The position numbers were made by a program, and so were the translations under genes. A DNA stretch of 22,549 bases from a virus: IMG/VR virus record IMGVR_UViG_3300020061_000027, positions 1-22,549 of that record; one strand, 5' to 3'. The notes beneath the pieces are model-generated. The model worked only from the letters and a program-made list of their open reading frames with translations, did no database searches and was not told the origin of the DNA. How positions within the stretch are numbered: position 1 is the first letter of the stretch; every line of letters begins with the position of its first letter. Below are positions 6,799-13,783 of this stretch, one piece after another.

Positions 6799-6827
6799 TT
6801 CACGATGGTTGGGTCTTCTGATAAGGT
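6799..6827 (+). promoter_or_regulatory. Promoter of the first tRNA cluster (leaderless type)
   Basis: TTCACG (6799-6804), 17 nt, TAAGGT (6822-6827). The ATG at 6835 begins 8 nt after the -10 box, the same distance seen at four other starts in the window. Confidence 0.5.
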
Positions 6828-6834
6828 CTGATTC

Positions 6835-6897
6835 ATGTTCGAGCTGTTCCGCCCCGTGCCCCCGATTTGGCGATATTCGCCGTCTCTGGGTCAGTAG
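6835..6897 (+). CDS. 20-residue leader peptide upstream of tRNA-Pro/Trp/Tyr
   Basis: The ORF reads MFELFRPVPPIWRYSPSLGQ and ends in TAG at 6895-6897. Its ATG lies 8 nt after a -10 box, so the mRNA would be nearly leaderless. It contains four Pro codons, one Trp and one Tyr, and the three tRNAs that follow are Pro, Trp and Tyr. The last codons overlap the left arm of the inverted repeat at 6870-6925. This layout is that of a ribosome-sensing leader (attenuator). Translation is not proven. Confidence 0.45.
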   Translation: MFELFRPVPPIWRYSPSLGQ

Positions 6898-6925
6898 CTC
6901 CTACTCTCAAGACGCCGAATATCGC
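6870..6925. promoter_or_regulatory. Inverted repeat overlapping the leader ORF end
   Basis: GCGATATTCGCCGTC (6870-6884) pairs with GACGCCGAATATCGC (6911-6925) with one mismatch and a 26-nt loop. It ends 16 nt before tRNA-Pro. A stalled ribosome in the leader ORF would cover the left arm. It could be an attenuator stem or a processing stem. Confidence 0.5.
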
Positions 6926-6941
6926 TCTCCCGCAGTAACTA

Positions 6942-7012
6942 CGGGGTGTAGTGAAATGGCATCATGCGTGGTTTGGGACCATGTGGTGGAGGTTCGATTC
7001 CTCCCATCCCGA
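6942..7012 (+). tRNA. tRNA-Pro(TGG)
   Basis: Acceptor CGGGGTG/CATCCCG, anticodon loop TTTGGGA, T-arm GGAGG-TTCGATT-CCTCC, discriminator A. CCA is not encoded. It reads CCA codons and is the first tRNA of the 5' cluster. Confidence 0.88.
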
Positions 7013-7029
7013 CTCAGAGACTTGTCCGT

Positions 7030-7099
7030 GGGGATGAGTGCGTGGGCATGCTTTGGCCTCCAAAACCAAAAGCTGCGGGTTCAACTCCTGCCATCCTCG
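7030..7099 (+). tRNA. tRNA-Trp(CCA)
   Basis: Acceptor GGGGATG/CATCCTC, anticodon loop CTCCAAA, T-arm GCGGG-TTCAACT-CCTGC, discriminator G73 as in other Trp tRNAs. The 31-39 pair of the anticodon stem is a C-A mismatch. Confidence 0.85.
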
Positions 7100-7103
7100 C
7101 CAA

Positions 7104-7182
7104 GCCGGTTGTTCCTGGGAGACATTTGTGGCTGTAACCCACACGCCTTCGGGCTAGAGAGGTTCGATTCCTCTAACCGGTA
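7104..7182 (+). tRNA. tRNA-Tyr(GTA)
   Basis: Acceptor GCCGGTT/AACCGGT, anticodon arm TGTGG-CTGTAAC-CCACA, long variable arm (CGCCTTCGGGCTAG), T-arm with TTCGATT, discriminator A. The class II variable arm is correct for bacterial Tyr. Confidence 0.88.
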
Positions 7183-7978: not shown

Positions 7979-8008
7979 TTGACGCCGTGCAGCAATCTGA
8001 TCTAACCT
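7979..8008 (+). promoter_or_regulatory. Strong promoter of the pth2 gene
   Basis: TTGACG (7979-7984), 18 nt, TAACCT (8003-8008). The expected start point falls at or next to 8016, where ATG-TAG-ATG begins, so the transcript is probably leaderless. Confidence 0.65.
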
Positions 8009-8015
8009 GATTGGC

Positions 8016-8021
8016 ATGTAG
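8016..8021 (+). promoter_or_regulatory. AUG-UAG start-stop directly before pth2
   Basis: ATG (8016-8018) and TAG (8019-8021) are in frame with, and touch, the ATG at 8022. If transcription starts near 8016, the mRNA begins with a start-stop. Ribosomes must reinitiate or read UAG to make Pth2; the array also encodes a tRNA with anticodon CTA. Confidence 0.4.
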
Positions 8022-8417
8022 ATGGATACCACGACTCAGTCACAGTCACCGGACAAGCTGTACATCGCCGTTCGCGCTGACCTCCCTCCGGGCCTGCAGT
8101 TGGCTCAGAGCACTCACGCCGCATTCCAATTCTTCGACGAGCACCCTACACAGGCCCGTAGTTGGCTGCACCGGTCGAACTTTCTCGTCGTCGTCGCCGT
8201 CCCCGATGAAGATGCCCTCCTGGCCCTGGCCGCCGAGGCCTCTCTGGGCAAGGGTCTGTGCACCACCAAGGTGCATGAGCCCGACCTGGGCGACGAGTAC
8301 ACCGCCCTCGCCATGCAGCCTGGCCCTGAGGCAGGAACGCTCTGCGCGTCCTACCCGCTGGCCCTGCGCAATGCGGTGGACTACGCCTCGACGATCGCGA
8401 AGGCGGCCAGCATGTAA
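8022..8417 (+). CDS. Peptidyl-tRNA hydrolase, Pth2 family
   Basis: The 131-residue product matches the Pth2 fold: residues 13-34 (LYIAVRADLPPGLQLAQSTH) correspond to the N-terminal strand and the conserved Gly-x-x-x-AQ-x-x-H helix. They are followed by a LVVVAVPDEDALLALAAEA strand-helix and a VHEPDLGDEYTALAMQPG segment, equivalent to the D-x-G-x-T substrate loop. Length is normal for Pth2 (about 115-140). The enzyme frees tRNA from stalled or dropped-off peptidyl-tRNA. It has its own promoter and no SD, and lies directly before the main tRNA/tmRNA array, which fits recycling of phage tRNAs. ATG at 8022 is the first start after the start-stop. Confidence 0.75.
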   Translation: MDTTTQSQSPDKLYIAVRADLPPGLQLAQSTHAAFQFFDEHPTQARSWLHRSNFLVVVAVPDEDALLALAAEASLGKGLCTTKVHEPDLGDEYTALAMQPGPEAGTLCASYPLALRNAVDYASTIAKAASM

Positions 8418-8714: not shown

Positions 8715-8785
8715 GCTCCATTAGCTCAATGGTAGAGCGGCGACTTCTAACCTCGCTGGTGCCGGTTCAACTCCGGCATGGGGCG
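8715..8785 (+). tRNA. tRNA with anticodon CTA (amber-reading candidate)
   Basis: Acceptor GCTCCAT/ATGGGGC, D-arm GCTC-AATGGTA-GAGC, anticodon arm GCGAC-TTCTAAC-CTCGC, T-arm GCCGG-TTCAACT-CCGGC, discriminator G. Standard numbering from the D-stem puts CTA at 34-36, which reads UAG. The 31-39 pair is C-C. Reading it as TCT (Arg) would break more stem pairs, and a separate Arg(TCT) tRNA exists at 12591. Confidence 0.65.
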
Positions 8786-8863
8786 CTCGGGAAATAATCT
8801 GCTTGCGCTGCCAAGCAACAACGCATACCCTGATCAAGTCACCTCGGGCAAGCCTGAGTGGCC

Positions 8864-10717: not shown

Positions 10718-10813
10718 GCAGGAGTAGCTCAGCATGGAGATGTCCTCCCTGAGGGGACTCAGAGCACCGGGATCACACCCCGGAGGCCGTCGGTTCGAAT
10801 CCGACCTCCCGCC
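10718..10813 (+). tRNA. tRNA-Val(CAC), copy 2, with hairpin inserted in the D-loop
   Basis: Acceptor GCAGGAG/CTCCCGC, anticodon arm CCGGG-ATCACAC-CCCGG and T-arm GTCGG-TTCGAAT-CCGAC are normal. The D-loop between GCTC (10727) and GAGC is about 31 nt, because it contains a GTCCTC-cctga-GGGGAC hairpin. Total 96 nt. A second Val(CAC) exists at 9843. Confidence 0.7.
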
Positions 10814-13731: not shown

Positions 13732-13783
13732 TCCAGATCAGCCAAAAGGACCTCGATACCCATCTCCTCCACGCTGATCTGGA
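13732..13783 (+). repeat. 30-nt-loop hairpin element, copy 5 (tandem array 2)
   Basis: TCCAGATCAGC (13732-13742) pairs perfectly with GCTGATCTGGA (13773-13783). The 30-nt loop starts CA and has CGATACCCA at positions 12-20. CCAACT precedes the stem. Confidence 0.87.

Follow-up and report, generated by a model that had tools for sequence, protein, structure and literature searches.

Leaderless leader peptides matched in codon content to the tRNA genes that follow them suggest attenuation of mycobacteriophage tRNA blocks

Blocks of tRNA genes in a group of mycobacteriophages begin with a very short open reading frame (ORF) whose codons are those read by the tRNAs of the block. Leaderless promoter geometry, the match between codons and tRNAs, the position of a hairpin relative to the control codons, and the conservation of this arrangement are shown by the sequences reported here. 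The best explanation, which we consider likely, is codon-specific leader-peptide attenuation of each phage tRNA block. As no expression or ribosome data were available, we infer that the leaders are translated and that ribosomes stall on them, and likewise the direction of the response and the manner of termination. If the explanation is true, a phage can probably sense the shortage of a given tRNA and adjust the output of its own copy.

The window, meaning the whole stretch of DNA that was analyzed, is a 22.5-kb IMG/VR virus record. It is a phage genome fragment that resembles the Bixzunavirus mycobacteriophages of cluster C1 (Ceeclamvirinae), and it contains the following features around a Pro/Trp/Tyr tRNA block, a region that was found in about 190 mycobacteriophage records.

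6799..6804, plus strand: -35-like hexamer TTCACG (4/6 matches to TTGACA), 17 nt before the -10 hexamer
6822..6827, plus strand: -10 hexamer TAAGGT (TANNNT), separated from the ATG by exactly 7 nt; transcription is predicted to start at 6835
6835..6897, plus strand: predicted leaderless leader-peptide ORF MFELFRPVPPIWRYSPSLGQ; ATG, 20 codons, TAG stop at 6895-6897
6868..6882, plus strand: control-codon cluster TGG CGA TAT TCG CCG (Trp-Arg-Tyr-Ser-Pro), which makes up the hairpin 5' arm
6870..6885, plus strand: hairpin 5' arm (inverted repeat)
6910..6925, plus strand: hairpin 3' arm (inverted repeat)
6942..7013, plus strand: tRNA-Pro(tgg), called by ARAGORN and Rfam
7030..7102, plus strand: tRNA-Trp(cca), called by ARAGORN and Rfam
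about 7104..7182, plus strand: tRNA-Tyr(gta), read from the sequence

A preliminary description of this stretch had reported a 20-codon ORF (MFELFRPVPPIWRYSPSLGQ) with four Pro codons, one Trp codon, and one Tyr codon, standing upstream of tRNA genes for the same three amino acids, and both claims held. Neither ARAGORN nor Rfam made a call for tRNA-Tyr at about 7104-7182; it was recognized by eye (the acceptor and T arms match and the anticodon is GTA), and C1 relatives have it annotated at the corresponding position. Also claimed was a 15-bp inverted repeat at 6870-6925 whose left arm is overlapped by the end of the ORF. The repeat held, with its arms corrected to 16 nt (94% complementary, 24 nt between them), and the overlap needed correction: the TAG stop sits in the hairpin loop, and it is the Trp-Arg-Tyr-Ser-Pro codons that form the left arm. 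The fold of the window leader beats 198/200 dinucleotide shuffles (z of -2.8). When the 200 nt upstream of the tRNA were shuffled, the -10/ATG geometry together with an ORF of 8 to 40 codons containing Pro, Trp, and Tyr arose in 0.17%. Because 7 nt separate the -10 box from the ATG, the mRNA of the window leader is probably leaderless, from a start that is predicted and has not been mapped. It is established that mycobacteria initiate translation at an RTG that coincides with the transcription start and that no Shine-Dalgarno sequence is needed there (PMC4633059).

We compared nine Pro/Trp/Tyr leaders, from the window, Tonenili, Yucca, ET08, a Mycolicibacterium llatzerense prophage, Myrna, Phabba, ScoobyDoobyDoo, and the metagenomic contig 3300042922_000265 (here referred to as G003). 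In all nine, TANNNT is followed after 6 or 7 nt by ATG or GTG, and a consensus TTGACA occupies the equivalent -35 place in G003 and ScoobyDoobyDoo. The order of promoter, ORF, stop, and hairpin is present in both Ceeclamvirinae genera, in the metagenomic phage G003, and in the prophage; the upstream DNA differs among the Tonenili, Yucca, prophage, and window versions, yet the leader geometry is kept. C1-type leaders (window, Tonenili type, Yucca type, and prophage locus L006) end in WRYxPSLG[RQ], of which WRYxPSLG is found in all of them. C2-type leaders (Myrnavirus and G003), with the same geometry, resemble MFTTADTTRGxLERAxYRPWH.. and share the ending ..YRPWH.. in Myrna, Phabba, ScoobyDoobyDoo, and G003. 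A model (R1) built from the C1-type hairpin gave no score on the Myrna leader, and only direct inspection of the region revealed the Myrna type. Pro, Trp, and Tyr codons occur in every leader of this block that we examined, including the differing Myrnavirus sequence, and are clustered in both types. The tRNA trio behind both types is Pro-Trp-Tyr, with the order Trp-Pro-Tyr in ScoobyDoobyDoo; in Myrna, the block continues into a long array, and codons for the array's other amino acids are not represented in the leader. By composition alone, enrichment in the Pro/Trp/Tyr leaders is weak (p of 0.02 to 0.58), and their case rests on the presence and conservation of all three residues.

The M. llatzerense prophage leader retains its Tyr codon, and no tRNA-Tyr was found beside it. 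As a separate observation, this prophage (loci L006 and L013 on contig NZ_JXST01000003) is siphovirus-like and unlike cluster C, and it carries the same leader with tRNA-Pro and a degenerate Trp-type tRNA; we take the occurrence of leader and tRNA in such a prophage as a sign that both move together.

The C1 hairpin shows two double compensatory changes between the window and Tonenili (GCGATATTCG:CGAATATCGC versus GCGATATCAG:CTGATATCGC). The identity of the stop codon varies (TAG, TAA, or TGA), and its position in or at the edge of the hairpin is kept. Distances from the start to the Trp codon in C1-type leaders are 33, 42, 30, and 30 nt, which differ by multiples of three. One alternative is that conservation reflects an RNA structure that serves pre-tRNA processing or stability (an RNase III/RNase P leader) and that the ORF is incidental. 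In its favor, a hairpin with two compensatory pairs lies near the 5' end of the first tRNA, and constraints on the ORF and on the RNA overlap. However, this alternative leaves unexplained the leaderless start, the changed-but-kept stop codons, the multiple-of-three length differences in C1-type leaders, and an ORF composition that tracks tRNA identity in three blocks, and we regard it as very unlikely.

The match is not confined to one block. The same phages carry two further tRNA blocks far off in the genome, each with its own leaderless leader and the same promoter geometry as the Pro/Trp/Tyr leaders. Ahead of tRNA-Ser(gct)-Leu(cag)-Leu(gag)-Leu(..), the leaders, each ending in a stop codon, are MFTRLSLSSSLRLS in G003, MFALLSLSSSLRLS in Myrna and Phabba, MIAFRLSLSSSLVS in Tonenili, and MFARLSLSSSLRLS in Breeniome and ScoobyDoobyDoo. 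Ahead of tRNA-Gln(ctg)-Asn(gtt), they are MFTTAMNRQQ in G003, MRTNRLNRQQ in Myrna, MRTSSQQNRQQ in Tonenili and I3, and MRTNVNRQQ in ScoobyDoobyDoo, again each followed by a stop. Ser and Leu make up 8 to 10 of 13 residues in the former (binomial p of 3.5e-5 to 1.4e-7); for Gln and Asn in the latter, the binomial p is 4e-4 to 2e-2. In the Ser-Ser-Ser run, Tonenili (TCC TCA TCG) and Breeniome (TCA TCC TCC) differ at three places, all synonymous, which suggests that the peptide or its codons are under selection. The hairpin of every block contains the control codons or the stop, or lies directly against them, as in CAG-TAG...CTACTGC (Gln/Asn), CTA CGA CTT TCG TAG (Ser/Leu), and the WRYSP codons (C1 Pro/Trp/Tyr). 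The preliminary description had proposed conservation of codon content in related phages as a check, and this held, with the leaders of the further blocks matching their own Ser/Leu or Gln/Asn tRNAs. Relatives with the same tRNAs but without such codons, which it had named as refuting, were looked for; there were none among the relatives examined, and the idea survived.

These additional blocks bear on two other readings. The first is that the leaders are arrest peptides, in which the nascent chain senses a drug or effector (as in TnaC or ErmL) and not tRNA charging. The short conserved C-terminal motif of the Pro/Trp/Tyr leaders (WRYxPSLG or YRPWH) would fit this reading; however, the Ser/Leu and Gln/Asn leaders lack that motif and yet have the same layout and the same tRNA match, which makes it very unlikely. 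The second is chance, i.e., that short ORFs in GC-rich phage DNA happen to hold such codons. Some Pro codons are to be expected in any 20-codon ORF, and the composition of the Pro/Trp/Tyr leaders taken alone does not argue strongly against it. However, when upstream regions were shuffled locus by locus, the geometry appeared in 1 to 5%, and in only 0.07 to 2% was it accompanied by the full set of matching residues. Furthermore, leaders stand before 13 of 14 block-first tRNAs, the fourteenth being the ATG-TAG block described below, and before none of 126 interior tRNAs. Of the 216 possible assignments of leaders to blocks, the actual one fits best, ahead of all 215 permuted ones. The comparative data thus already contradict chance, which we consider all but excluded. 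Replicates within one block are related by descent and are not independent, so the independent evidence amounts essentially to three to four blocks.

The system appears to be restricted in its distribution. No codon-matched leader was found in two more distant tRNA-rich phages (contig G006 and Rhodococcus phage Francesca), and therefore it looks confined to Ceeclamvirinae and one prophage. At this locus, no tRNA array is annotated in Gordonia, Rhodococcus, and Settecandela relatives. IMG/VR searches with single proteins of the downstream genes returned nothing; an alignment query did give matches. Pattern hits at L012, L014, L015, and L063 and weak model hits at L044-L050 have no tRNA nearby and were set aside as chance.

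We propose the following mechanism. RNA polymerase would start at the A of the leader ATG, and ribosomes would load directly on the leaderless mRNA and translate a peptide of 9 to 26 codons, rich in codons of that block's own tRNAs. The control codons, or the stop just after them, would form or abut the hairpin that precedes the first tRNA. With matching charged tRNAs plentiful, the ribosome would finish and leave, the hairpin would form, and less transcription would reach the tRNA genes. With the same tRNAs scarce, the ribosome would stall on the control codons and cover a hairpin arm, and the tRNA genes would be transcribed. That shortage turns the tRNA genes on is inferred from biological sense. 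Opening of the stem by stalling under charged-tRNA shortage, which the preliminary description had suggested, is supported as the best explanation, with the hairpin not proven to be a terminator and with translation and the sign of the response inferred.

A possible cause of scarcity would be host anticodon nucleases that cut tRNAs. Mycobacterial toxins cut tRNAs, some are activated by phage infection, and anticodon-loop changes in C1 phage tRNAs should confer resistance (PMC10264068); tRNA shortage during infection is thus plausible. The same phage group carries genes for RNA ligase, polynucleotide kinase, and nucleotidyltransferase.

How the hairpin would lower tRNA output is less clear. A U-tract after the hairpins is not conserved and is absent from the window and from the C1 and most C2 leaders examined; the Myrna leader has TTTTCT, and those of Phabba and ScoobyDoobyDoo have no U-tract. 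Because of this, an intrinsic terminator is unproven, and we rejected that reading as a general one. For the whole leaders of Tonenili, Yucca, and the prophage, an alternative fold that excludes the hairpin is predicted (CCGACCC:GGGTCGG in Yucca). This mutually exclusive fold is not the minimum-energy fold predicted for the window or ET08, and relatives differ in the minimum-energy fold that is predicted for the whole leader. Rfam identified no known RNA family in the leaders and no T-box even at E values up to 10. The leaders would work like an attenuator, yet we do not class them with the classical intrinsic-terminator type. The termination step may involve Rho or suboptimal intrinsic termination, and it is possible that either of these, or RNA decay, is the hairpin's way of lowering output.

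An alternative is a codon-matched sensor of opposite sign, in which translation through the leader, with tRNAs available, shields the C-rich RNA ahead of the tRNA genes from Rho or RNase so that the tRNA genes are on only when translation is healthy (feed-forward). The lack of conserved U-tracts and the C-rich stretch that follows the stop codon in C1 leaders speak for it, as does the role of Rho and translated upstream ORFs in shaping premature termination in Mycobacterium tuberculosis (known to us from the title of a reference cited in PMC13236596). Against it, the hairpin arms consist of control codons, which fits occlusion by a stalled ribosome, and a switch that produced tRNAs solely in times of plenty would bring no evident benefit. 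We consider it unlikely and retain attenuation relieved by shortage as the preferred reading.

A fourth kind of block, the second one in the window, differs in its proposed control codon, and its features are as follows.

7979..7984, plus strand: -35 hexamer TTGACG, 18 nt before the -10 hexamer
8003..8008, plus strand: -10 hexamer TAACCT, 7 nt (N7) before the ATG
8016..8021, plus strand: ATG-TAG start-stop, leaderless and in frame with the gene that follows; its TAG corresponds to the suppressor tRNA encoded downstream
8022..8417, plus strand: peptidyl-tRNA hydrolase homologue, with 72-73% identity to proteins annotated as peptidyl tRNA hydrolase
8715..8786, plus strand: tRNA(cta) of the amber-suppressor type, called by ARAGORN (label tRNA-Pyl) and Rfam

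A leaderless [ATG/GTG]-TAG start is found at 7/7 Ceeclamvirinae-type loci (the window, two C1 phages, G003, Myrna, Phabba, and ScoobyDoobyDoo), and a TAG in frame likewise lies ahead of the hydrolase core at hydrolase-tRNA(cta) loci that are more distant. We infer from sequence alone that the control codon of this block would be the amber codon. Given the in-frame TAG, amber suppression by the adjoining tRNA(cta) may be required for the hydrolase or for a start-stop sensor. A bolder reading, which we think could as easily prove wrong as right, is that the leaders act across the whole genome as sensors of tRNA shortage. The first element of each tRNA block, amber included, would be a leaderless mini-ORF composed of the codons that the tRNAs of the block read (Pro/Trp/Tyr, Ser/Leu, Gln/Asn, or TAG), the phage would recognize which tRNAs of the host had been destroyed and would replace only these, and ATG-TAG would tie the hydrolase to the adjoining suppressor tRNA.

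Several observations stand apart from these arguments. Peptidyl-tRNA hydrolase loci beside tRNA(cta) with an in-frame TAG are L032 to L041 (around 4000). In L041 (IMG/VR 3300037258_000035; also L052, on the minus strand), a distant phage that carries over 30 tRNAs, the hydrolase reads MTFA-TAG-IPSTPPSKLYIVVRADLPP after TTGACA...TATAAA and is followed by two tRNA(cta) genes; it is likely a read-through gene. Elsewhere in the window, Rfam places an unusually long tRNA of 96 nt at 10718-10813 (51 bits), for which ARAGORN gives no call. A single tRNA-Glu(ctc) lies on the minus strand at 2198-2269, right after a minor tail gene; the Glu(ctc) gene of C1 phages is instead within the main array, between Cys and His. 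Between 13732 and 16366, at least six perfect or near-perfect inverted repeats (arms of 11 to 15 bp, about 30 nt apart) fall inside genes, at 13732/13773, 13791/13834, 13851/13894, 14884/14929, 15016/15060, and 16311/16354; the constant arm spacing looks non-random.

Explanations for the presence of tRNA genes in phages have been disputed for decades, and the regulation of such genes has received hardly any study. From a leader written in the codons of its own tRNAs, one can read which shortage the block answers to. Codon-matched leaders make the idea of tRNAs as counter-defence directly testable by simple reporters, and they offer ready-made sensors for the depletion of single tRNAs in mycobacteria. 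The preliminary description had held that such control of phage tRNAs would be new, and the open-access literature that we searched (subscription papers were outside its scope) yielded no description of phage tRNAs controlled by a leader peptide. To our knowledge, this would be the first case in which a leader peptide attenuates tRNA genes.

The phage tRNA leaders are likely a variant of leader-peptide attenuation in a place for which we found no prior description. As in the attenuators of amino acid operons (trp, his, and ilv type; M. tuberculosis ilvB1, PMC13236596), a short ORF with the relevant codons precedes hairpins, and stalling would pick the RNA fold. Unlike them, the phage leaders would regulate tRNA genes and not biosynthetic genes, and what they sense would be the product itself; they are also leaderless and have no conserved intrinsic terminator. 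Leaderless short ORFs with cysteine codons are reported to attenuate mycobacterial operons (Canestrari et al. 2020, known to us by title only, cited in PMC13236596) and are alike in being leaderless short ORFs with control codons in mycobacteria. Those, however, precede protein-coding operons and concern one amino acid, whereas each phage leader carries a code of two or three residues that equals the set of tRNAs encoded downstream. T-box riboswitches likewise control genes by the charging state of specific tRNAs, but they bind uncharged tRNA directly via structured RNA, whereas in the phage leaders the reader would be the ribosome. Finally, the nuclease-resistant tRNAs described for cluster C1 mycobacteriophages (PMC10264068) belong to the same phages and tRNA genes and give a reason for host tRNA shortage; that work concerns tRNA sequence, whereas the leaders described here concern the regulation of tRNA genes.
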